Source: a virus. Taken from it: a DNA stretch of 22,795 nucleotides. Positions 637 through 21,862 of this stretch are shown here, one piece after another. The DNA is taken from positions 1 through 22,795 of the IMG/VR virus record IMGVR_UViG_3300030103_000128, one strand, 5' to 3'. Made by a program: the position numbers and the translations under genes. The stretch's first letter is position 1. Every line of letters starts with the position of its first letter. Under the pieces are notes generated by a model. The model was not told where the DNA came from. It saw only the letters and a program-made list of their open reading frames with translations, and ran no database searches.

Positions 637-861
637 TTACTCCTCCTCTGGTGGAGCATATCCTGTCAATGCTGTTGCCTCGTCTTGTGTAAGACCTAAA
701 TCTAAAAGTTTTTTGTTTCCTGTTTTTTGGTCGGCCACTTTTTTTATAGCAGCATCCTTTAAAACTTTTATTTCAGCATTTACATTTGCTCTATCTTTTT
801 CTAAAGCTGACACTTCTTCTGCAGTCATCTCTATTGTTTTACCATTTATAATTTTATGCAT
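637..861 (-). CDS. Small tail-assembly-chaperone-like protein (74 aa)
   Basis: A 74-residue soluble, helical, charged protein beginning MHKIINGKTIEMTAEE. That opening aligns by eye with the start of the clearer chaperone at 1462-1749 (MPRYHNINGTKVQFTAEEE), which is why I chose the ATG at 861 over the upstream ATG at 873. Neither start has a good Shine-Dalgarno, and translation is probably coupled to the preceding gene, whose stop overlaps it (ATGCATAA). The middle is a coiled-coil-like Glu/Lys segment. The end, KLLDLGLTQDEATALTG, resembles the C-terminus of several small phage tail proteins. It sits between two fibre-like genes, the position where fibre-assembly chaperones are usually found. 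Function is inferred from context and weak similarity only. Confidence 0.7.
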   Translation of the reverse strand: MHKIINGKTIEMTAEEVSALEKDRANVNAEIKVLKDAAIKKVADQKTGNKKLLDLGLTQDEATALTGYAPPEEE

Positions 862-1453
862 TTGTGTACCCATATATTTTTATGTTGTATGCAGTAATAT
901 TACCGCTATTAGCAACAAATTTTATCCCTCTAACTTGTTCTTCAGTATCATTATGACCCACTGATGTAGTAACGGCATGTGCGTTCTCTCCATCGTGATA
1001 ACCATAAGTAATTCCGTCATAATAAGTAACGGAACTTCCCATTGGATTTAAAAATTTACATGAAAATCTTGTATCTAGTCCTGCTTCACTTCCAGACCCT
1101 CTATTAAAGTAAAAGGTTGAAACATTATTATCATTATCGGTGGTATTTGTGGTATCGTTAGTGTGTACTCTATGAGCTGTTAAATAATAACTACTTGTTC
1201 TTTCGCTTCCGTCTGAAGATTTTAAAAATCTTAAATAAGTTCCCGCAGTATCACTTCTGTCAAATGTCATCTCAACATGATATAAATTATAAGTTGTTGT
1301 AAATACACTATCTATTGACACAGAACTAGCTGCACTTGATGAACTTGAAGAGTGTACTAACACTAGACCTTGTGGTGTTCCAGTCACAGTTCCCGTGAAT
1401 GCAAATGTGTCTGTTAGATCTATACCTGTTGAATCTACTTTTGTCTTACTCAT
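854..1453 (-). CDS. Receptor-binding / fibre-tip-like protein, paralogue D (divergent)
   Basis: A 199-residue protein with ATG at 1453 behind AGGAGG. It opens MSKTKVDSTGIDLTDTFAFTGTVTG, matching the start of the three tandem paralogues at 1774-3687 (SLNLAGTYGFSGTVTG and similar). It ends KFVANSGNITAYNIKIYGY, against F.FSSGNIDSG.I.LYGI in the others. The middle is more divergent: the NPSSTTF.KH motif has become NPMGSSVTYYD. Size, beta-rich composition and position among fibre genes suggest a small trimeric fibre tip or receptor-binding protein. No enzymatic motif is visible. It is separated from the other three paralogues by the chaperone-like gene at 1462-1749 and overlaps the next small gene at its stop. 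Confidence 0.75.
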   Translation of the reverse strand: MSKTKVDSTGIDLTDTFAFTGTVTGTPQGLVLVHSSSSSSAASSVSIDSVFTTTYNLYHVEMTFDRSDTAGTYLRFLKSSDGSERTSSYYLTAHRVHTNDTTNTTDNDNNVSTFYFNRGSGSEAGLDTRFSCKFLNPMGSSVTYYDGITYGYHDGENAHAVTTSVGHNDTEEQVRGIKFVANSGNITAYNIKIYGYTNA

Positions 1454-1461
1454 CTATCCTC

Positions 1462-1749
1462 CTATGGTTTAGTAGGCCAAGTTGCGTTCTCGCACTTCTC
1501 TACTGTATCTTTTCCCGCAGGTAAGTCTCTTAGATTCTGTCGATATGTTTTCATATCATCACTAAGAGTGCTATCTGATAAAGCTAGATAGTCTGTCTCT
1601 GCTAATAATCTGTTTCTTTTTGTTCTGAGGTCAGCCAAGGCTCTAGCAGGTGCTGCGTCAGCCCATGCTTTCTCTTCTGCGTCCCTGGCGGTCTCTTCTT
1701 CCGCTGTAAATTGGACTTTAGTTCCGTTTATATTGTGATATCTTGGCAT
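1462..1749 (-). CDS. Phage tail assembly chaperone (TAC-like)
   Basis: A 95-residue protein with ATG at 1749 behind AAGGAG (6-nt spacing). The N-terminal half is a charged helix. The C-terminal half has the order of motifs seen in phage tail-fibre assembly chaperones: RNRLLAETDYLALSDSTL, then YRQNLRDLPAG, then a terminal NATWPTKP. The R..LL..TD...L.D ... YRQ.LRD.P ... WP.KP pattern is characteristic of the tail-fibre chaperone families in P2/Mu-like and many marine phages. Such proteins help fibres fold and trimerise and are normally encoded beside the fibre they serve. Here it lies between paralogues C and D, so either could be its client. Confidence 0.85.
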   Translation of the reverse strand: MPRYHNINGTKVQFTAEEETARDAEEKAWADAAPARALADLRTKRNRLLAETDYLALSDSTLSDDMKTYRQNLRDLPAGKDTVEKCENATWPTKP

Positions 1750-1773
1750 GATCTCTCCTTTATATCAATTTCT

Positions 1774-2403
1774 CTAGTTAATTCCATACATTTCTATTGT
1801 ACCTGAGTCTATGTTTCCGCTAGACATACTGAACTGAACTCCATCTATAGCTGCTGTAACATTACAGTATCCTGCTAAAAATGCATCTTGAGCAGCATTA
1901 TTTCCTTCTATTGTTATAGACCTAGCTATAAAATGTTTTACAAAAGTAGTAGAACTTGGGTCAAATAAAAATAATTCTCCACAAATATGTTGGTCGGCAT
2001 CATTACCTACAAACCTGTCTAAATTAGCCGCACTAGTGCTTTGCGCTAAATCACCACTAGTATTGTAAGACATTTGTGCTTCAGAATCATCTTCTTTATG
2101 AGATGCTTGAAAAAAACTTGTTGTTTTAGTGGCATCAAAATTACTGCTGCCATCTCTAAAATTTATTAAAAAGTTTTTTCTATCTTCTGAACCATGTATA
2201 TTAATAAATCTAAACTTATAAATATTGTAAGTATTATCTATACTACTAGTAAAACTTAATGTACTACTACTAGATGCTGTTAATGTAGCTAATTTTTTTT
2301 CTTCATACGCCCCTGAAGATGCACTACTTATAGAGTTAGTTCCTGTAAAAGCATAATTAGCAGTTAGGTCCATAGATGCAGGTTGTATCTTACTTAATGC
2401 CAT
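1774..2403 (-). CDS. Receptor-binding / fibre-tip-like protein, paralogue C
   Basis: A 209-residue protein starting MALSKIQPASMDLTANYAF. The ATG at 2403 lies inside the end of the upstream paralogue (14-bp overlap), and its Shine-Dalgarno (GGGAGG) is embedded in codons of that gene. Shared family landmarks are NIHG, FLINFRDGSSNFDATKT, FDPSSTTFVKHF and the C-terminal YCNVTAAIDGVQF ... SSGNIDSGTIEMYGIN. Over the last 31 residues, 23 are identical to paralogue B by direct comparison. It is beta-rich and Ser/Thr/Asp-rich, with no signal peptide or membrane segment. A receptor-binding role is inferred from the tandem paralogy, the fibre neighbourhood and the presence of assembly chaperones. Confidence 0.8.
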   Translation of the reverse strand: MALSKIQPASMDLTANYAFTGTNSISSASSGAYEEKKLATLTASSSSTLSFTSSIDNTYNIYKFRFINIHGSEDRKNFLINFRDGSSNFDATKTTSFFQASHKEDDSEAQMSYNTSGDLAQSTSAANLDRFVGNDADQHICGELFLFDPSSTTFVKHFIARSITIEGNNAAQDAFLAGYCNVTAAIDGVQFSMSSGNIDSGTIEMYGIN

Positions 2404-3028
2404 ATAACGCTATCCTCCCTGAATCTATGTTGCCACTACTAAATTGAAATCTAACTGCATCTATAGCTGCTGTGACATTACAATAACCTCCACCCATTCC
2501 TCTGTAATTTATATTATTTCTGTCATACCCTGAAAAATCAGAATTAAAATGTTTTATAAAAGTAGTGCTACTAGGATTAAATAAATACACATCTCCACTA
2601 CAACATTCATCACTACCATTGCCTTGATTTCTAGACAGCCTTGCATTACCTGTTCCTTGAGCAACATCTGCTCCTGTGTCATAAGCTAAACTTGCAACAG
2701 TAGAATCATCCTCTGAATGTCCTGAATCAAAAAATGTAGTTGTTTTAGTTGCATCATAATTAGAACCACCATCTCTAAAATTTATTTGAAATGCAACATT
2801 GTCTGTAGCAGGGTGAATATTTACACACCTAAACAAATATGTTTTATAAGTATTATCTAAAACTACACCACTAGCACCATTAACAAAATCTACTGTACCA
2901 CTAGAACTTGCATCAATATTCTTAATTAAAAATAATTTCTGTGTAGATACAACTCCAGTTACTGTGCCTGTTAGAGCATAGTTGTCTGTCAGGTCAAAAG
3001 AGTTTGCTGCTAATTTACTAAGTGCCAT
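2390..3028 (-). CDS. Receptor-binding / fibre-tip-like protein, paralogue B
   Basis: A 212-residue protein, MALSKLAANSFDLTDNYALTGTVTG at the start, whose ATG overlaps the stop of paralogue A (TAATG at 3028) with GGAG upstream. Landmarks are NIHPATDNVAFQINFRDG, SNYDATKT, LFNPSSTTFIKHF and YCNVTAAIDAVRFQF-SSGNIDSGRIALYGIK. It is closest to paralogue C, with near-identical blocks around FRDG.SN.DATKT and the C-terminus. One substitution near the C-terminus (GR instead of GT) coincides with bases that form the Shine-Dalgarno of the next gene. No catalytic motif is seen. It is a probable fibre-tip component or an alternative receptor-binding protein. Confidence 0.8.
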   Translation of the reverse strand: MALSKLAANSFDLTDNYALTGTVTGVVSTQKLFLIKNIDASSSGTVDFVNGASGVVLDNTYKTYLFRCVNIHPATDNVAFQINFRDGGSNYDATKTTTFFDSGHSEDDSTVASLAYDTGADVAQGTGNARLSRNQGNGSDECCSGDVYLFNPSSTTFIKHFNSDFSGYDRNNINYRGMGGGYCNVTAAIDAVRFQFSSGNIDSGRIALYGIK

Positions 3029-3687
3029 TATACTACTCCAAATAAATCTATCGTTCCGCCTTGTATTTCACCACTGTTAAATTCAAATTTAACATTGTTG
3101 ACTGCTGATGTTGTATTAACGTACCCTGCTGTATAAGTGTCATAAGCATATTGGTCGCCATCACCTGATGAAGTTACTGTGTGTGTTGTATAATGTTTTA
3201 CAAATGTAGTTGAACTAGGGTTATATAATTTCATAATACCAGATACTCCATCATCATTATTAGAACCTGTATCAGCACTAATATAATGAGTGCTACCACT
3301 AGCTGTATCAAAACCAGTTTGATATTCTAATGTAGGTCCTACACCTCCACCATCTTCTCTGTGATATGTTGTAAATGCTGAAGAGGTTAAACTTAAATTA
3401 TAATTAGAGCCATTATCAATACTAGGATGAAATCTTAAATACTTTTGATTAGTCCCTGGGTGTATATTATTAAACACAAACAAATATTCTTTATATGTAG
3501 AAGTTATATGTGAACTTGTAAATGTTGCATTTGCATCAGAACCATCAGAAGTAAATGTGCTTAATAATACTAAAGGTGTCTCATCAGCTAATCCTGTGAC
3601 TGTGCCACTAAAGCCATATGTACCTGCAAGATTTAAGCTATTGGCTTTTATCTTGGATAGTGATGTTCCAACTTCTCCAAATGCCAT
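3028..3687 (-). CDS. Receptor-binding / fibre-tip-like protein, paralogue A
   Basis: A 219-residue protein with ATG at 3687 behind AAAGG. After a short extension (MAFGEVGTSLSKI) it carries the family start KANSLNLAGTYGFSGTVTG. Shared landmarks follow: NNIHPGTNQKYLRF, LYNPSSTTFVKHY, a Gly/Asp/Tyr-rich loop, and the C-terminal AGYVNTTSAVNNVKFEFNSGEIQGGTIDLFGVV. It is the first of three directly adjacent paralogues (A, B, C), and a fourth (D) lies further on. It begins two bases after a small XkdW-like gene. The function is inferred to be host recognition; the fold is probably a beta-sandwich or jelly roll. Confidence 0.8.
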   Translation of the reverse strand: MAFGEVGTSLSKIKANSLNLAGTYGFSGTVTGLADETPLVLLSTFTSDGSDANATFTSSHITSTYKEYLFVFNNIHPGTNQKYLRFHPSIDNGSNYNLSLTSSAFTTYHREDGGGVGPTLEYQTGFDTASGSTHYISADTGSNNDDGVSGIMKLYNPSSTTFVKHYTTHTVTSSGDGDQYAYDTYTAGYVNTTSAVNNVKFEFNSGEIQGGTIDLFGVV

Positions 3688-12717: not shown

Positions 12718-13149
12718 TTAATATAAATGCAAGATATCCTCTGGATTCTTGATTGTTGCTAAAATTTCGTCATCATTTAAAATACGAATTTCTCCACCTT
12801 CTATTTGTAGGCGAGAACCTGCATATCTACCAAAGATAACCCAGTCTTTCTCTTTACACCACGGACCTTCCGTGAATTTGTTTAAATCTTTATATGCATC
12901 TGGTCCTACACTTAACACATATCCACATGTCGTGCTAACTGATTGCATTTCAATAGTTTGATCTGACAAAATAATACCGCCTTTTGTTTTACCTGTTCCT
13001 TTGTAAGGTAAAATTACTATTCTCCAACCTGTCGGTTTAGGTAGTCTTTCAGTTAATTTTTTTGGAATATTATTAGGATCAATCTTTTCTACTTGATCGT
13101 CTGCGACTTTGCCAAAGTTTAGAACTTTGTCTGGTATTGGTTTACTCAA
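12718..13149 (-). CDS. groES: GroES-like co-chaperonin (Cpn10)
   Basis: A 143-residue protein with a Cpn10 domain at ~37-134: PTGWRIVILPYKGTGKTKGGIIL, CGYVLSVGPDAY, KEKDWVIFGRYAGSRLQIEGGEIRILNDDEILATI. The segment KTKGGIILSDQTIE (~54-67) corresponds to the GroES mobile loop that docks on GroEL, including the hydrophobic GGIIL tip. A ~36-residue N-terminal extension is unusual compared with bacterial GroES (~97 residues). The start is TTG at 13149: it has AAGGAG at good spacing and no in-frame ATG precedes the domain. By analogy with T4 gp31, it would replace host GroES to fold capsid or other virion proteins; which client is an inference. It overlaps the 65-residue gene before it. Confidence 0.88.
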   Translation of the reverse strand: MSKPIPDKVLNFGKVADDQVEKIDPNNIPKKLTERLPKPTGWRIVILPYKGTGKTKGGIILSDQTIEMQSVSTTCGYVLSVGPDAYKDLNKFTEGPWCKEKDWVIFGRYAGSRLQIEGGEIRILNDDEILATIKNPEDILHLY

Positions 13150-13893: not shown

Positions 13894-14142
13894 TTATTTA
13901 TATTTGACGGTGTTCTTAACACCTTTGTGGCCTTGAGTGACAGTTTCAACATCACCGCCATCTTTGTACATCATGCCTCCGCCCATCATGCCTGGCACTT
14001 GTATTTCTTGAGGCATTCTGATTACTTCATCAACTTTGATGTCGCCACCTTTGTTATAACCCATTATCTTTTTAGCAACGTCAGGTCTTTTTGAGGCCAA
14101 CGCATTCATGCCTTTAGAAGGGTATTTTCCATTTTTTTTCAT
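13894..14142 (-). CDS. Small Gly/Met-rich protein with two GG-tag motifs (82 aa)
   Basis: I place the start at ATG 14142 because TAAGGAG, overlapping the stop of the upstream gene, lies six bases ahead; an upstream ATG at 14178 lacks such a site. The protein opens MKKNGKYPSKGMNALASKRPDVAKKIMGY, then NKGGDIKVDEVI, a Met/Gly-rich linker (MMGGGMMYKDGGDV) and a basic tail ending KNTVKYK. The K.MNALA.KRP.V..K.MG pattern is known from marine phage small proteins of unknown role. The two GG-D[IV] motifs recur in neighbouring proteins. Low complexity, no membrane span. Confidence 0.75.
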   Translation of the reverse strand: MKKNGKYPSKGMNALASKRPDVAKKIMGYNKGGDIKVDEVIRMPQEIQVPGMMGGGMMYKDGGDVETVTQGHKGVKNTVKYK

Positions 14143-14152
14143 CTTTGTCTCC

Positions 14153-14380
14153 TTAGTGTAAAGTTCTATCGGCATCACCGAAAGTCTGTCTCATAACTTC
14201 TAGTAAAAGACTTGTTGCTATCTCTTCACCTAGAGCTTGAGTATATAGTATTTTTGTGGCATTTAAAAATGCATTTGCAATAAAAATTGTGTCTTCATCA
14301 GACTCAGAATGCTCTTTAGTTATTTTATTAGCCTCCTGCAACACTTTTTGCGTTAATTTACTAATTTTAGCAGTGTCCAT
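14153..14380 (-). CDS. Small acidic helical protein (75 aa)
   Basis: The start is placed at ATG 14380, which shares bases with the upstream stop (TAATG); an ATG four codons earlier (14392) is an alternative. The sequence, MDTAKISKLTQKVLQEANKITK then EHSESDEDTIFIANAFLNATKILYTQ and LGEEIATSLLLEVMRQTFGD, is helical, acidic and soluble. It stands out from its Lys-rich neighbours by its acidic charge, which could let it pair with them. No family is recognised. Confidence 0.68.
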   Translation of the reverse strand: MDTAKISKLTQKVLQEANKITKEHSESDEDTIFIANAFLNATKILYTQALGEEIATSLLLEVMRQTFGDADRTLH

Positions 14381-14661
14381 TAACAATTCCATTTTCTTAA
14401 TGATTTGTTAATTCTTGAATTAGGATCTTTAGCTGTTTTAGCTGATGTTAATTTTTTCTTCATGCCTGACATTCTAGCACAAAAAGATTTTCTTCTATTA
14501 GCAGCTTTTGAGCCTGATTTTAATTTAGAAGGTTTAGTTGTTACCGCTGTTTTAAGTTTTGAACCAGGATTAGCTGCTCTATAAGAAGCTACACCTTTTT
14601 TATTTAATCCTCCTGATTTACTTTTACCTTCTTTACGTTGCCATGCCGCAGTTTTTGCCAT
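14380..14661 (-). CDS. Lys/Arg-rich small protein, AWQRKEGK...SFCARMSGMK type (93 aa)
   Basis: ATG at 14661 overlaps the previous stop (TAATG). Motif order is AWQRKEGKSKSGGLNKKG, SYRAANPGSKLK, RRKSFCARMSGMKKKL and a terminal NKSLRKWNC. This AW.RKEG....GGLN.KG ... R..SF.ARM.GM ... L..W.C pattern is a domain of unknown function found in marine phages and other aquatic viruses (DUF6321-like by my recollection). About 27 Lys/Arg against 2 acidic residues implies nucleic-acid binding. Two Cys are near the C-terminus, one terminal. No enzymatic motif. Confidence 0.82.
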   Translation of the reverse strand: MAKTAAWQRKEGKSKSGGLNKKGVASYRAANPGSKLKTAVTTKPSKLKSGSKAANRRKSFCARMSGMKKKLTSAKTAKDPNSRINKSLRKWNC

Positions 14662-14930
14662 TATGCTACCTTTTTACTTTTTTTCTTTGCAAAGGTCGCA
14701 ACGTTAGTTGGTTTTCCACCTGGATTACCTGCTGCTCTTTTTCTTCTGACTGCTGATTTTCTTTGACTGTCTGTCATTTTTGCGGCTTTTGATGCGGGGA
14801 CACATTTAGGGTAGCCACTTCTTTTCTCACCTTTGCTTCTACCACAAGGTTTGAATCCACCACCTTTTTTAGGTGCTCCTATGTCGACCCATTTGTCTTT
14901 TACCCATTTACGAAGACCGTTTTTTGCCAT
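14661..14930 (-). CDS. Lys/Arg-rich small protein, KWVDIG...PCGR...YPKC type (89 aa)
   Basis: I use ATG 14930 (MAKNGLRKWVKDKW); a TTG four codons upstream (14942) is an alternative, and neither has a clear Shine-Dalgarno. Motifs are LRKWVKDKWVDIGAPKK, FKPCGRSKG, GYPKCVPASKA and SAVRRKRAAGNPGGKPT. The W...KW.DI...K.......CGR ... YPKC.P ... VRRKR pattern matches a virus-spread domain of unknown function (DUF5872-like by my recollection). The two Cys could bind metal with outside ligands. About 27 basic against 4 acidic residues. It overlaps the 45-residue gene upstream. Confidence 0.8.
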   Translation of the reverse strand: MAKNGLRKWVKDKWVDIGAPKKGGGFKPCGRSKGEKRSGYPKCVPASKAAKMTDSQRKSAVRRKRAAGNPGGKPTNVATFAKKKSKKVA

Positions 14931-15045
14931 TCTTTTTACCAATAACCGATTTTAAAGTTTTAGCTTGACCCGCATGTAATTTAGATGCTTTGTTAAGTCC
15001 TTTAATAACTTTTTTTACTTTGTTTTTATTTTTTGGTTTAAGCAT
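14908..15045 (-). CDS. Tiny polycationic protein with no acidic residues (45 aa)
   Basis: A 45-codon gene in the gap between two small basic genes; ATG at 15045 overlaps the upstream stop (ATGCTTAA) and its end overlaps the next gene. The protein (MLKPKNKNKVKKVIKGLNKA then SKLHAGQAKTLKSVIGKKNG) has 15 Lys and 1 Arg, and no Asp or Glu. The KGL.KASKLHAGQAKTL core is a pattern I associate with small marine phage proteins, supporting it as a real gene. A DNA-compacting or packaging role is inferred from charge and position. Confidence 0.72.
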   Translation of the reverse strand: MLKPKNKNKVKKVIKGLNKASKLHAGQAKTLKSVIGKKNGKKRSS

Positions 15046-15310
15046 AACTGGTTGACTTTCTTTTTCCTTCCATTACAGCTCCACACCCTCTGGCAACACC
15101 ACCATTATTCATATGTGATACTTTTTTTCTAGATTGCGATAGTTTATTTCCATCACCAATCATTCCACCGCTAGCTTTTTTATTTTTCTTGCCTCCTGGT
15201 GTAATCTTTCCACTACAAACCCCGCTTGCATACATATTAGCATACGCGCTAGGGTAGACATCGAATTTGGCCTTGGCTGCCGCTTTTCCTCTTGCACATA
15301 ATTTGCCCAT
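15038..15310 (-). CDS. Small basic Cys-containing protein with YPSAYAN and RGCG motifs (90 aa)
   Basis: ATG at 15310 behind GAGGAGAT inside the portal gene's end. The N-terminal part is MGKLCARGKAAAKAKFDVYP then SAYANMYASGVCSGKI; this CA.GK.AAK.KF.VYPSAYAN.YAS.VC.GK pattern occurs in small proteins of marine phages and some giant viruses. The C-terminal part has ASGGMIGDGNK and MNNGGVARGCGAVMEGKRKS, a GG/RGCG-type tail that recurs in uncultured marine phages. About 18 basic against 3 acidic residues. It follows the portal gene directly. Unknown function; a virion-associated or DNA-associated role is inferred. Confidence 0.8.
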   Translation of the reverse strand: MGKLCARGKAAAKAKFDVYPSAYANMYASGVCSGKITPGGKKNKKASGGMIGDGNKLSQSRKKVSHMNNGGVARGCGAVMEGKRKSTSYA

Positions 15311-15311
15311 T

Positions 15312-17762
15312 TTAATTATCTCCTCTTTTTTTAGTGTCTCTGTCTTTGTCTGCTTTGTCTAAAGCAACGTTTGCACGTAATTGTGCAATGTCTTCTTGAC
15401 TTTCTATCTTTTCTCTAGTTAATTTATCAGTTTGCATTAGTTTTTTCTCATCTAAAGCTTGTTTTTCGCCCATTGCTTGTGCTTTTAACTCTAAATCGTC
15501 CTTTCTAAGGTTAATTTCTTGTTGTTTTAAGTCCACAAGTGGATCAGAACTAGAAGTATCCATCATTTCTTGCTCTTCTGCAACCATTTGTTCTATAATT
15601 TCAGCTATTTTTACTGCAACACCACTTTCGGTACGTTGTGAAAGCTCTTGTTGTTGTTCTTGAGTCATTTGACCTCCTGTTTGTGCCATAATTTGCTCCA
15701 TTTCAGGTGCTATTTCTTGTTCTACAATCATTCTAGCCATAAAACTAACGTGTTCCGTAATATGTGCTTGTAAAATTGTCATTGTTGCAGGATTATTTTT
15801 GACTAATTCTGATGACATAAAGGCTCTGTGTGCTCTTATGTGAGCAGAATGATCTTGTTCAGGGAAAGGAATAGGTGGCATACCGTTTAAAGTTCCTGCA
15901 TTTTCAATTGCAGGATCTTGTGCCTGTGGTTCTTGAGGTGCTGGTAATAATTTTTCTATATTTTGTACACCTAAAGCAGAATACATTCTTGAATATGCTT
16001 CTCTTAAATCATGCATCTCAGGATTTGATTGAGCTAATTGTAATTGAGATTGAGCAAGAGTTACTCTTTGTGCCATAGAAAAGATGTTTGGATCTGAAAC
16101 AGGTATAACATCTACTCTTTCATCAAAGTCTGCTTTTTTAACTGATTGTTCTCCACCTGATACCATGTAAGGATAATTTTCAGGTAGATAATCAGCAAAA
16201 ACTTTTGCTAATAATTTAAATTCTGTTTTTTGTGCATAGTGCAATCTTTTATGAATAGCTGACATAACTTTCATGCCACGCTCTAAGATGGCCATAGTTG
16301 TTCCAACAGGCTGTTGCTGACTACCAGCATTCTCACCCATCATCATATCTGCTACACCAGCAAATCTTCTTCCTGCATCTACAACAAAACCTAATAATTG
16401 AAATAACGTTGCACTAGGTTCTTTGTAAGGTAATGGCATAAGTGACTCACGTAAATTACCCCCAGGTGCATCTACATCTCTCCATTCGCCAGGATTGATT
16501 GCTTCATCATCATCTCTAATTCTTAAACCTCTAGCTTTAAAACCAGCAGGTAAGTTAGATAAAGTTCCAGCATCTACCAATTGACGTAGAGCTGCAGTTG
16601 CGGTTCTTGATAAACCACCTAGCATGTGAATTAAACCAAAGCCATAGAATCCTAAGCCAGGTAAAAATTTAAAATGTGTAAAATACTCTTTCTTTTTACG
16701 TAGAGGATCACCTTGATTCCAGTTTCGATATATAGATAAAATTTGACCAGAGTCCTCATCAAGAGTTACAATATAAGGCAACATAATTCCTGTTTTTTTA
16801 TTGTCAGCGCCCATGTCCTCAAAACCTGGTAAATCTAAATCAACATGCATTTCCAAAACATTGTGCTCTTCTTCTGCGAAAGAAATTTGTTCTACTCCAG
16901 ATAGCTCATCTTGTTTTTCTTTTATGTCTGAAGGATTTGCCGTGCTTGGTGAAAGCTCTACATCTCTATAAAAACCAGAAACTTGATTCTTTCTTAAATC
17001 ATTGTGTTTCATTTTAACAACGTGAGTAATTCTACCACAAGATTCTAAGTCAGTGATAAAATATGGAACGACCAAATCTTCTGCTGGTACAAATTTAGAT
17101 ACCGCTCTTTCTAATGTACCGTCATAGTAAACTTTTTTGAATGCTGAACCTGCTAAAGGTAAATGAAATAATAACTGATCTAGCTCAGGATCAAATTCTT
17201 GCATTTGACAAGTAATTTGATAGTTCATAAATTGTTTAATTCTTTCAGCTTGTTGTTCTACCTCAAGACTAGGTGCTCCCATTATTTCTGTTCTAACGGG
17301 ACCTCCTGGAGGTAGTAATTCTTTGTATGCTTGTGCTTGAAACTGTGTGACTGCTTCTGCAAGCAGTGGATGTGTTACACCTGCAGCTCCTGCAAAAGGT
17401 TTTGATCTTTCTTCATATTTAAATCCAAGAAGATCTAATCCGTCTTTGTATGTCTTTTCCCAATCGGATCTAGAACTTTTATCGTCTTCAAAGTTTTTTT
17501 GTAAATCAGAAGATAATTTATCTAATAAATCATCTTCCATAAACTCTGCTATGTTCGCAAAATAGTCACCTTGAGATTGTTTTTTATTGGGATCAAAATC
17601 TAAAGTGACCCCTCCATCTTCTTCTTCAATAATTTCATAGCCTTTACTGGTGTTCTCAGGCTCTGTTAATTGTATTTCTTCTCCTACACCCTCTACTTCA
17701 AGTGCATTATTAGCATTGGGAGATATATCTATTGCTGTATTTTGTATTCGTTTTTCTACCAT
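15312..17762 (-). CDS. Portal protein (816 aa)
   Basis: ATG at 17762 with AGGAG upstream, overlapping the end of the 1368-residue gene. An acidic N-terminal tail (1-90) precedes the conserved region: YKDGLDLLGFKYEERSKPFAGA, GVTHPLLAEAVTQFQAQAYK, LLPPGGPVRTEIMG (~105-165), then PLAGSAFKKVYYD, VPAEDLVVPYFITDLESC, KFLPGLGFYGFGLIHMLGGL and GTLSNLPAGFKARGLRIRDDD (the stem and crown region). MVGENAGSQQQPVGTTMAILE-like residues follow at ~480. The last ~150 residues are Gln/Glu-rich coiled coil (QQEINLRKDDLELKAQA). This is the large portal type of marine podovirus-like phages. It forms the dodecameric DNA gate at one capsid vertex and docks the terminase and the neck proteins. Confidence 0.92.
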   Translation of the reverse strand: MVEKRIQNTAIDISPNANNALEVEGVGEEIQLTEPENTSKGYEIIEEEDGGVTLDFDPNKKQSQGDYFANIAEFMEDDLLDKLSSDLQKNFEDDKSSRSDWEKTYKDGLDLLGFKYEERSKPFAGAAGVTHPLLAEAVTQFQAQAYKELLPPGGPVRTEIMGAPSLEVEQQAERIKQFMNYQITCQMQEFDPELDQLLFHLPLAGSAFKKVYYDGTLERAVSKFVPAEDLVVPYFITDLESCGRITHVVKMKHNDLRKNQVSGFYRDVELSPSTANPSDIKEKQDELSGVEQISFAEEEHNVLEMHVDLDLPGFEDMGADNKKTGIMLPYIVTLDEDSGQILSIYRNWNQGDPLRKKKEYFTHFKFLPGLGFYGFGLIHMLGGLSRTATAALRQLVDAGTLSNLPAGFKARGLRIRDDDEAINPGEWRDVDAPGGNLRESLMPLPYKEPSATLFQLLGFVVDAGRRFAGVADMMMGENAGSQQQPVGTTMAILERGMKVMSAIHKRLHYAQKTEFKLLAKVFADYLPENYPYMVSGGEQSVKKADFDERVDVIPVSDPNIFSMAQRVTLAQSQLQLAQSNPEMHDLREAYSRMYSALGVQNIEKLLPAPQEPQAQDPAIENAGTLNGMPPIPFPEQDHSAHIRAHRAFMSSELVKNNPATMTILQAHITEHVSFMARMIVEQEIAPEMEQIMAQTGGQMTQEQQQELSQRTESGVAVKIAEIIEQMVAEEQEMMDTSSSDPLVDLKQQEINLRKDDLELKAQAMGEKQALDEKKLMQTDKLTREKIESQEDIAQLRANVALDKADKDRDTKKRGDN

Positions 17763-20700
17763 CTACTGGCTCCTATAGGCGACAGTAACTCATTAACAGA
17801 AACTATCGGTGTGTATAATATACTTTTTTTCACAAGACCTCCATCTTTTTTATACGCTTTATATGGGAACAACATGTCAGGTGTCAATTCAATCATAAAA
17901 GTATCTACTCCCTCTCCTGCCATACCAAATTTCACTTTTCCCACCTCTACTTTAGAACTTTTTGCATTTGCTATTTTATTTAAACTTTCTTCTACATTAC
18001 CTGTAAAGTGTGTGCCAGTATGGTCATTTAAGTTTGGCCCACCATATTGCATATCATAAGCAACCATTTTACCACTTCTGTTAGGATCATCGGGTGAAAG
18101 TTCTACTCCATTACCACCTCTGTAAGCTTTGACAGCTTTATTGGGTGCTACACCATAATGAGAAGGTGCATCTCTGTTTACTTGTAAAGCTCCATTTTCA
18201 TCAAAATAAAATCTTTTCTTAGCTGCATTGTAGACGTCATTTTTAATTATAGCGTCTACCCAATCCTTTTGATCTTTAAAAGGTATGTTAGGAAATAATT
18301 CTCTAGCATCTATATTATCAATAGAAGCATTTATTGTAGCTAATGCCTGATCTCTTTTTGTTGCGGCTTCTCCTAATTGTTTAAAACTTTCTTTAGTTAA
18401 ATCATCAATATCCATTTTAGATATTTTTTCAAATATTGCATCGCTTTCTATTAATTTATCTAATGATTTTTTTAACTGTGCATAAGTTGCAGGCATAGGT
18501 CTAAAAACATTTTCTAGTTTTTTATAAAGCTGTTCTATCTGTTGATTTCCATATGTAAATGGTCCTCGGTCTTGTACAAGAGTTCTTATGTCTTTTTTAA
18601 TATTAGATTTTAATGTAGCTGCTTTTTGCAGAAAGTCTGACTGTATCTCATCTGCTACATTTACAACAATATCTCTGTTGTTTAATTTTGCAATTCGATT
18701 ACTTCCCAATGACCAACCTATGACATATGGTTCTCCATCTAATTTATTTTCTTGCGCCATAAAATCGTCACTAGTTCTGACTTCACGCATTTCTCTATGA
18801 CCTTCATATCTTCTTATATCAGAAGGTAGAGAACCTATGTCTCCTCTAATGTCTTTAGAGTCTAGCCACAATACTCTTTCTGTTCTTGAACCACCAATAT
18901 AATCATCTTGTCTTCCAGAGTTACCGTATTTTAAATTACCTGCTTCATCACTGTAGGATACTGTTTGAATATAATTAGAAGGAGATGTATCTACTAATTC
19001 TTTTATTTCTGCAAAAGTTATTTTCTCATCATTTGTAAACTGTCCTGTCTCCCTGTTAAATCCACCTTTTTTATTTAAATAAGATCTTACGTAAGAGTCA
19101 TACAGTTCACCTTCTTTGATACCTTTAGATCTAAACCAATCGTGCCATTCTTTAGCTGACATATTAACAGTGTCATTTGGCACTGTAACTCCCTTGATTG
19201 TCAAATTACCTGTGTCGGTGTTTATTACAGAATTTAAATCTGAGTAAAATAATTTGTTATTCCCAGAACCAATAGCATTCTCTGGAACTATCGTAGAAAC
19301 AAGTGATGTTCCTGGTTTTGTTGTTTTGGATTTTTTTACTTTGACAGGTACTTCTATTTCTTTCACAGTAAATTGTTTACCTTCTAAGTCACCTAGCTTT
19401 AATGCTTTTTGTTGTGCATCATCTATACTTTTACTTTGATAAACTTTATTACCATTCTCATCAAATATATTATACCTCTTCTCTAAAATAGGTGCTTCAG
19501 GTGGAGGTAATTGTTTTACGGTTTCTGTTTTCTTTACAAGCTTTGGTGTGTCACCTAATAAAAAGTTTTTAGGTAGAGGTAATGCTTCTGCTTCAGGAAT
19601 TATAAAGTTACTAACTGCTGAAGCAGCTTTTGATAAAAATGATTGATCCTCTTGTTCTGTTTTCACTTCTCCTCCTTGGTCAAAGGATTTTAAATAACCC
19701 TTTTCATTTTTAATATCCGAAGGCTTTAATTTATTTTCTATGGCATAGTCTAAAATTTCTTGAAGTCTTGTTGCACCTATTTCCACTCTTTGATTTAAAG
19801 TAACTGATTTCGGGTCTTCAATACCATAAATTACTGTGTCTTTTTTACCACTTTTTTTTGTAATAGGAACTATAGTTCTAATTAGTCTGTCTTTATAAAT
19901 TCCATCTATTACTCCTGATACCTCCTGCATCAATTCATATTGATTATTAAATTTATTTAAATTTGGCTTATAGCCATAGTCTTCTAATATATCTAATAAT
20001 TTTTGATTTATAGGATTTTTTCTAGTTAGATCTTTGTTATTAATTTTTAAATCAGTAATTTGCGAAAATTCTTTTTTTAATCCCTCTTGATTTAATATAT
20101 CTCCTAAAATGTTTGCATAGGGATCTAATTTAACTTGTAAATAGTTATAAGCTTGAAGGTGAGGTTGTATAAATTCTGTTTCGGTTCCAGCACCTTTAAA
20201 TCTTCCTACATTTTGTAATCTACCACTTCCCTCTGTTCTAGTAACAAATAATGGGATATCATGTGTTTTGTCAAACTGTAGAATTTTATAATCAATTTTA
20301 TTATCTTTATTCAAAAGGTAAGGTCTGTATTTTTCATTTTTAGCCAACTCATTTAAAATGTCACGACCCGCCACATTTGCATTTGTTCTTTGTAATTCTA
20401 AATTAACATAAAGAGGAAAGTCTTCTAAATCTTGATCACTCATGTATTTATTAATAAAGTCTTCTGTGTTTAATTTTTCATTACCTTTTGTTTGTTTTAT
20501 ACTACGAAACTTATCGTACATATAATCTTGAAAAAGTTGAAAAGGAGATACTGTTTCAGCTTTGTATTTTCCCGCTCTTCTTAAATCGTTAATTTTTTTA
20601 AAAGTTTCAGGATCAATATTTTTAAAATATTTATTTAAGTCAGCTTTGTTTGAAAAAATTTCTGCTGCCTCTCTGTTAAAAATTTTTCTTGGATCATTAG

Positions 20701-21862
20701 TTTGTCCTTTTACAGTATTCCCTCTGATAACTATGTCGTCTATCTTTTGTTTTAATACAGGATCTTGTGCCGTGTAACTGTTAAGAAGGGTAGGGTCCAT
20801 ACCAATTGCATCTGCAAGCTCTACTCTTGTTTTATAGAATATGTTGTTTTGTTGAGCATTGTTTACAACTTTATTTATTTTTTCTCTACCTATTTCACCT
20901 GCTTTAGAAGTAGCTTTCGATAAACCCTCTTTTGCGTTTAATTCGATTTTTGCAAATTTTTCATCCGAAACTAAACCATATTTTAAAAGATTGTTTTTAA
21001 CTCCAGCTTTAACTCCTCTGCTGTACTCTTTAATAAGAGGGTTAAGGTTGTTTTCTTTTAAAATACTGGCAAACGATCCATCTAATTTATCTATAGGAGT
21101 GTTATCTATTATTTCAGCAAATCTTAAAATATTATCTAAGTCTTTCTTGTTTTTAAATTCTTTAAAATTTTTAGGATCAGAATAAAATTTTTCTCTAGGA
21201 TTTATTTTATTTTCCTTTGAAAGAAGATTAGAAACCTCTTGCACTTTTTCAGGAGGAAGAGTATTTATAATATTTTTTAAAGCACCGAAGTCCTGTTTAC
21301 TTAATGCTTTTCTAATTGTGCTAACTACTCCTGATCCAATACCTGCAACGTCTGCTACATCAACGAATCCAATTAAATAGTTTGCAAGATCTTGACCTTC
21401 CAATTGAGAGGGTCTTATTTCACCATCAGCTACCTTCTTGTGAATATCATAAGTATCACCAAAGAAAAATTCTCTGCCTTTGTTAAGAACGTTCATGACA
21501 GTTGTTTTAGGGTAGCCAATCGCTACCATGTCATCTTCAAGCTGTTCGATAGCTAATAGTTGTTCTCGTGATTTAGGAGGTAATTGTAAAATATTTTGTA
21601 TCCTAGTTCTTGCTCCTTCTAAGAAAGATGCTTGTGTTTGATCTTTAGCTGCAATGTCTGCTTTGATTTGTTGACGCTCTTCTTCTGATGTTCCGGGGAC
21701 CAAGAACCGTAGTATGGGTTCAACGGCTATATCAGAGACCGCCTCGAAAGGTATTTCAGTTGTTCTTGTTAAAGTGTTACTAAGGAAAGCAGGTATTTGA
21801 TCTATACCTTGTCTTACATTATCAATAAAATTATTTTTTAGTGCGCTGTTTTTATCTACCAT
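17756..21862 (-). CDS. Giant polyvalent protein with C-terminal DEIQSD-type domain (1368 aa)
   Basis: ATG at 21862 overlaps the terminase stop (TAATG). Residues 1-~700 are helical and Lys/Asp/Asn-rich without a family I can name; a small hydrophobic stretch (~160-185, NYLIGFVDVADVAGIGSGVV) is the only membrane-like part. FDQGGEVK (727-734) ends the first half. A Pro/Lys-rich linker runs to ~850. Residues ~900-1340 resemble the large domain of phage polyvalent proteins: WLDSKDIRGDIG, EGHREMREVRTSDDF (~1020-1034), VIGWSLG, VVNVADEIQSDFLQ (~1066-1079), PFKDQKDWVDAI (~1194), and VEVGKVKFGM ... FMIELTPDML (~1305-1331). It ends with KKDGGLVKK and a short tail. Such proteins are often injected with or packaged alongside phage DNA; its activity is unknown. 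The gene sits between terminase and portal, a place for packaged or internal proteins. Confidence 0.82.
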   Translation of the reverse strand: MVDKNSALKNNFIDNVRQGIDQIPAFLSNTLTRTTEIPFEAVSDIAVEPILRFLVPGTSEEERQQIKADIAAKDQTQASFLEGARTRIQNILQLPPKSREQLLAIEQLEDDMVAIGYPKTTVMNVLNKGREFFFGDTYDIHKKVADGEIRPSQLEGQDLANYLIGFVDVADVAGIGSGVVSTIRKALSKQDFGALKNIINTLPPEKVQEVSNLLSKENKINPREKFYSDPKNFKEFKNKKDLDNILRFAEIIDNTPIDKLDGSFASILKENNLNPLIKEYSRGVKAGVKNNLLKYGLVSDEKFAKIELNAKEGLSKATSKAGEIGREKINKVVNNAQQNNIFYKTRVELADAIGMDPTLLNSYTAQDPVLKQKIDDIVIRGNTVKGQTNDPRKIFNREAAEIFSNKADLNKYFKNIDPETFKKINDLRRAGKYKAETVSPFQLFQDYMYDKFRSIKQTKGNEKLNTEDFINKYMSDQDLEDFPLYVNLELQRTNANVAGRDILNELAKNEKYRPYLLNKDNKIDYKILQFDKTHDIPLFVTRTEGSGRLQNVGRFKGAGTETEFIQPHLQAYNYLQVKLDPYANILGDILNQEGLKKEFSQITDLKINNKDLTRKNPINQKLLDILEDYGYKPNLNKFNNQYELMQEVSGVIDGIYKDRLIRTIVPITKKSGKKDTVIYGIEDPKSVTLNQRVEIGATRLQEILDYAIENKLKPSDIKNEKGYLKSFDQGGEVKTEQEDQSFLSKAASAVSNFIIPEAEALPLPKNFLLGDTPKLVKKTETVKQLPPPEAPILEKRYNIFDENGNKVYQSKSIDDAQQKALKLGDLEGKQFTVKEIEVPVKVKKSKTTKPGTSLVSTIVPENAIGSGNNKLFYSDLNSVINTDTGNLTIKGVTVPNDTVNMSAKEWHDWFRSKGIKEGELYDSYVRSYLNKKGGFNRETGQFTNDEKITFAEIKELVDTSPSNYIQTVSYSDEAGNLKYGNSGRQDDYIGGSRTERVLWLDSKDIRGDIGSLPSDIRRYEGHREMREVRTSDDFMAQENKLDGEPYVIGWSLGSNRIAKLNNRDIVVNVADEIQSDFLQKAATLKSNIKKDIRTLVQDRGPFTYGNQQIEQLYKKLENVFRPMPATYAQLKKSLDKLIESDAIFEKISKMDIDDLTKESFKQLGEAATKRDQALATINASIDNIDARELFPNIPFKDQKDWVDAIIKNDVYNAAKKRFYFDENGALQVNRDAPSHYGVAPNKAVKAYRGGNGVELSPDDPNRSGKMVAYDMQYGGPNLNDHTGTHFTGNVEESLNKIANAKSSKVEVGKVKFGMAGEGVDTFMIELTPDMLFPYKAYKKDGGLVKKSILYTPIVSVNELLSPIGASRW

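Follow-up and report, generated by a model that had tools for sequence, protein, structure and literature searches.

A cassette of small basic proteins behind the portal gene of ocean phages: a conserved unit and its probable place in the virion

What is the role of a run of tiny, strongly basic proteins encoded directly behind a phage portal gene? The question is raised by a 22.8-kb linear IMG/VR fragment from a tailed phage of the ocean, the whole of which (22,795 nt) is referred to here as the window. The late genes of the window lie on the - strand in the order terminase, 1368-aa protein, portal, A, B, C, D, E, F, two small TM-like proteins and GroES, followed by a 302-aa scaffold-like protein and then a homologue of the major head protein. 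The portal gene (15312..17762, - strand) was identified by its match to phrog_1216 (1.5e-52) and stands next to the cassette, as a preliminary description of this DNA had proposed. The gene of the GroES-like co-chaperonin (12718..13149, - strand; PF00166, 2.4e-11), a protein that belongs to the HTVC023P-type core genome (PMC9599517), sits within the head gene block. A holin had also been named as a neighbour of the cassette; this is unproven, and the 42-aa and 131-aa TM proteins of the window matched no holin family.

Two other parts of the window were noted. Between the terminase and the portal, the 1368-aa protein (17756-21862, - strand) had no match in Pfam or NCBIfam, and its size and position resemble those of a large packaged or injected protein. 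At 854-3687 (- strand), four adjacent genes (199, 209, 212 and 219 aa) share an N-terminus (DLT..Y.FTGT) and have the appearance of tandem paralogues; they are probably duplicated tail-fibre or virion-surface genes.

The cassette genes and the DUF6321 family

All six cassette genes are on the - strand. Gene A (15310-15038) encodes a protein of 90 aa with 18 K+R and 3 D+E residues, which matched phrog_27331 (PHROG, 1.6e-24) and has the motif layout CARGK...YPSAYANMYASGVC...RGCG. Gene B (15045-14908) encodes a Lys-rich protein of 45 aa (basic to acidic residues, 16:0), and gene C (14930-14661) a protein of 89 aa (27:4; phrog_23735, PHROG, 2.1e-31) with the layout LRKWVKDKWVDI...CGR...YPKCVP, or of 93 aa if an alternative TTG start at 14942 is used. 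Gene D (14661-14380; 93 aa, 27:2) encodes a DUF6321 protein (PF19846) with an invariant Cys pair. It is followed by gene E (14380-14153), which encodes an acidic helical protein of 75 aa (8:12, pI 5.0), and by gene F (14142-13894), which encodes a Gly/Met-rich, mildly basic protein of 82 aa (16:8). Neighbouring genes overlap by 8 nt (A/B), 23 nt (B/C), 1 nt (C/D) and 1 nt (D/E). The charge counts reported earlier for four consecutive overlapping genes (18:3, 16:0, 27:4 and 27:2) were exact; the range given as a basic cassette holds for A to D, which are strongly basic, and also spans F, which is only mildly so. No other gene among the 33 of the window is as basic as A, B, C and D, which have a net charge per residue of 0.17-0.36 against a window median of -0.03 and are contiguous (P ~ 7e-4 under random gene order). 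Neither signal peptides nor TM segments were evident in A, C or D.

Gene D matches the whole DUF6321 profile (Pfam, 2.1e-19; 70.4 bits against a cut-off of 28.5; profile positions 1-72 of 72). This family is curated as of unknown function, is grouped here with phrog_727, phrog_3477 and phrog_4689, and was present in 513 of 50,697 phage records, mostly of cyanophages and pelagiphages. PHROGs 727 and 3477 hold both C-like and D domains. In the literature, no paper was found that names DUF6321 or ties it to A, C or head targeting. The AF2 model of D was all-helical (mean pLDDT 82), and its confident structural matches were phage or uncultured-virus proteins; a model of the fused C-A form (pLDDT 66) was too poor to use. 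Neither the D model nor the low-confidence C-A model had a fold match in the PDB. HU/H-NS-like nucleoid proteins are small and basic like the cassette proteins; a known nucleoid protein family (HU/histone-like) was considered for the cassette and rejected, as no such family was matched by sequence in Pfam, NCBIfam or the PDB, or by fold. In the pelagiphage Greip EXVC021P (MT375525), gp45 is a plain DUF6321 protein annotated as 'RecA-like recombination protein' (Gp114), a label that is likely a misannotation and whose name was possibly carried over from P-SSM2 gp114.

Conservation of A, C and D

The occurrence of the cassette genes was counted with iterative profiles over 233 loci. Genes A, C and D were found in 186, 193 and 201 of these loci, respectively; B is an optional member (32/233) and F a variable one (52/233). 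Gene E, though it overlaps D in the window, was present in just 19 of the 233 loci, so that its product, suggested earlier as a neutralising partner of the basic proteins, falls outside the conserved core. When the loci in which both genes stand separate were considered, A and C were adjacent in 185 of 192, with A first in 184 and a median gap of -1 nt, and C and D were adjacent in 138 of 177, with C first in 136; since homologous contigs are not independent, these counts are not to be taken as probabilities. The commonest setting of the cassette is the interval from portal to GroES, as in the cultured pelagiphage HTVC027P, and the GroES neighbourhood of the module is conserved. The block was relocated in HTVC023P, DSL-LC04 and others, and in some pelagiphages (HTVC106P, Greip, HTVC033P) cassette genes were found near genes for peptidase M15, lysozyme or amidase.

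Median pairwise dN/dS values, from pairs that are not independent, were 0.15-0.17 for A, C and D (about 0.16 for the set and 0.17 for A), and thus not near 1. The Cys pair of D (FCARM..WNC) was kept in 100% of 270 sequences, the pair of C in 83% and 99%, and the three cysteines of A in 95%, 63% and 78%. Both the paired Cys motifs of the preliminary description and the conserved neighbourhood that it had anticipated in related genomes are therefore real. Taken together, the co-occurrence and order of A, C and D, their dN/dS and the invariant cysteines of D establish that the cassette is a conserved unit under purifying selection.

Outside phages, 67 loci were found in 84,980 genomes, nearly all of them environmental MAGs or single-cell genomes. 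Many of these loci carry phage genes, with the portal or GroES alongside; a bacterial origin of the cassette was accordingly rejected, and the 67 loci are probably phage contigs.

Fused forms, leaders and virion detection in T4-like relatives

In T4-like contigs, the cassette domains were joined in single large proteins, of which 48 had the arrangement C-A-D and 16 the arrangement C-A, and others included versions with B, which was thus also found as a segment within fused proteins. In T4-like phages, the fused domains are placed between the small and large terminase subunits, and the genes adjoin terminase genes in P-HM2, S-SCSM1, S-CREM1 and S-CREM2. The motif [LI]xE occurred 256 times in the linkers of the fused proteins and 181 times in shuffled ones (ratio 1.41); given that ordinary non-virion proteins were likewise enriched (1.25), polyprotein cleavage at [LI]xE is weakly supported. 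Between the domains of fused T4-like proteins, for example L067:3916-5661 and L256, more small basic Cys-paired motifs were seen (CWPGYEKKGTKMMFGKRYNNCVKK; CKPGYYYCYTDKKCKKIP), and their recurrence suggests that there may be a larger repertoire of mini-domains of the cassette kind. A cyanophage-type C-A-D fusion (L256:2607-5177) also contained DUF192 (residues 335-434, E 6e-28).

The first ten residues of T4 IPIII are enough to bring a protein into the head, with residues 4 and 7 serving for targeting and residues 8 and 10 needed for cleavage (PMC9026906). According to the sequence record, T4 ipII and ipIII start with MKTYQEFIAE; S-CREM1 gp179 starts with MKTYNDFITE, and DUF6321 follows directly. 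A leader rule (F/Y/L at position 4, F/Y/L/H at position 7, Glu at position 10) was applied in a leader-blind test, in which IMG/VR was searched with the C domain without its leader and 80 contigs were obtained. The rule fitted 69 of 115 A/C/D ORFs as against 25 of 1562 other ORFs. With alternative starts allowed, leaders were found on C in 36 of 39 cases, on D in 25 of 28 and on A in 4 of 17, as well as on 14 of 21 A+D and 10 of 22 A+C fusions. The 51 distinct leaders gave the 10-residue consensus MK[TS]FKQ[FY][LIV]xE, in which features outside the rule also match T4, namely K2 (46/51), T/S3 (46/51) and a hydrophobic residue 8 (42/51). The gp21 protease and gp23 were present in all nine of the leader-type contigs of at least 89 kb that were searched.

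A different picture was obtained for the podovirus-type phages, where the leader rule fitted 0 of 251 A/C/D ORFs. The window proteins start with MGKLC, MAKNG and MAKTA and have no leader, and no gp21-type prohead protease (Peptidase_S77) was found in the window fragment, HTVC027P, HTVC023P, DSL-LC04, Greip or HTVC033P, the last five being related complete phages; the same search does find gp21 in T4-like records.

Virions of two cyanophages have been analyzed by mass spectrometry. In the published proteome of CsCl-purified S-CREM2 virions, gp137 was detected by 4 unique peptides covering 4.1% of the protein (PMC10665884 Table 3), and the adjoining gp136 by 8 peptides (PMC10665884). The gp137 protein (108049-109521) carries DUF6321 at its C-terminal end (E 1.6e-28) and itself has no leader; the peptides are credited to gp137 as a whole. 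For S-SCSM1, the authors detected 45 virion proteins (PMC9602691), and gp29 (C-A-D) was labelled 'virion protein' by them in the sequence record; with about 48 such labels, counting three enzymes named in the text of the paper, the label follows the mass spectrometry list closely, not perfectly. Among the S-CREM2 proteins fitting the leader rule, 5 of 6 were in the virion list (52 of 219 proteins; Fisher p = 0.003), including a SAM hydrolase, a kinase and a cytidylyltransferase. An earlier, loose pattern gave no significant result (p = 0.17) and was replaced by the rule on positions 4, 7 and 10 taken from the T4 literature; since the rule was set after this first look, the leader-free search carries more weight than the p value. 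The S-SCSM1 NMNAT (L314:38819-40048), which has been reported in virions, also bears the leader. The earlier suggestion of virion proteins is supported in the relatives by detection in cyanophage virions, by leaders and by fusions beside the terminase; for the window type, which has neither leader nor gp21, packaging would follow by homology.

Proposed role and alternatives

On balance, A, C and D, with B in genomes that have it, are probably small basic proteins located inside the virion that are made from a late coupled operon, enter the head, contact DNA and are ejected with the genome. Packing in the virion, as opposed to remaining behind in the cell, is the most likely fate of proteins of the A/C/D type. 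The three proteins would be translated late from the coupled operon, get into the head together with the genome or before it, rest on the DNA via Lys and Arg, and be ejected along with it. In phages with a T4-type core, the leader would address them to the core, or the domains would belong to larger head proteins. In window-type phages without such a core, they would be leaderless late products made beside the portal and the scaffold; judged by homology, they may be packaged in spite of the absent leader, and entry would probably depend on a different contact, with DNA, the portal or the scaffold. Contact with DNA is suggested by charge alone: the Lys/Arg density of A, C and D suits it, and lysines of T4 internal proteins are reported to touch DNA phosphates (PMC3012670). 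The proteins would then be expected to leave with the genome. That their main job would be to organise the packaged DNA and partly neutralise its charge is the weakest step; the main job may instead be help with ejection, and early DNA protection or host takeover is possible by analogy with T4 IPI and Alt.

A wider proposal is put forward tentatively. The cassette could serve aquatic phages as a protamine-like kit of three to four polycationic mini-proteins that coat the packaged genome, with a conserved Cys pair in both C and D and conserved cysteines in A. Such a kit would have passed between unrelated phage lineages: in T4-like phages its members carry a T4-type leader as head tag or form part of larger head proteins, and in window-type phages they are encoded in a portal-adjacent operon.

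Packaging would equally be expected of host-takeover or anti-defence proteins that are injected like T4 IPI or Alt and act in the host on nucleases, the nucleoid or transcription. The same leader on the virion enzymes of S-CREM2 and S-SCSM1 is in line with this explanation, as is the shielding of injected DNA by T4 IPI against a restriction enzyme (PMC3012670). However, A, C and D are conserved as a set, and strongly so across phages of very different hosts, whereas the T4 internal proteins have been described as highly diverse (PMC3012670); this suggests a phage or DNA target and not a fast-changing host target, and we regard the host-takeover explanation as rather unlikely. DNA-binding factors that assist the terminase or portal while the head is filled, without staying in the virion, would account for the position of the cassette beside the portal in the window and between the terminase subunits in T4-like phages, but a DUF6321 protein was detected in virions and A, C and D bear capsid-targeting leaders, which makes such assembly factors improbable. 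Lysis-associated cationic proteins that act on the envelope as infection ends are very improbable: most loci have portal and GroES as neighbours, A, C and D show neither signal peptides nor TM segments, and the T4-type leaders address the capsid, although lysis-type genes lie nearby in HTVC106P, Greip and HTVC033P and TM proteins are encoded downstream of the cassette in the window. A chance run of small Lys-rich ORFs, forming no functional unit, has practically no probability; AT-rich DNA favours Lys codons, but hundreds of homologues and the invariant Cys pair oppose this explanation, and the dN/dS and the conserved gene order rule it out.

The probable virion-interior proteins resemble T4 IPI, IPII and IPIII in being small head proteins, and the 10-residue leader pattern is shared by A, C and D of T4-like aquatic phages that have gp21 and gp23. 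Unlike the T4 proteins, those of the window phage type come without leader or gp21, and the mature parts of A, C and D match no named family. The polyvalent or head-packaged injected proteins of Iyer et al. 2017 (PMC5512222) are late proteins of several domains for which packaging and injection have been predicted, whereas the cassette domains are tiny and polycationic, lack an enzyme signature and are encoded by separate genes in podovirus-type phages.

A location of DUF6321, A and C within the head would give very common ocean-phage proteins a testable role. The results also point to use of the T4 capsid-targeting leader by cyanophages and other T4-like phages of aquatic habitats; NMNAT, SAM hydrolase and kinase are examples of the packaged and probably injected cargo that it marks there. 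The leader thereby offers a possible simple sequence rule for finding what T4-like aquatic phages inject. The leader-bearing cyanophage virion enzymes of non-structural type (SAM hydrolase, kinase, cytidylyltransferase and NMNAT) are gp6, gp13 and gp14 of S-CREM2 (L385), gp136 and gp154 of L387 and the NMNAT of S-SCSM1 (L314). A similar motif, RFASFMAE, lies near residue 18 of S-CREM2 gp12, which is annotated as a Cas9-like nuclease.
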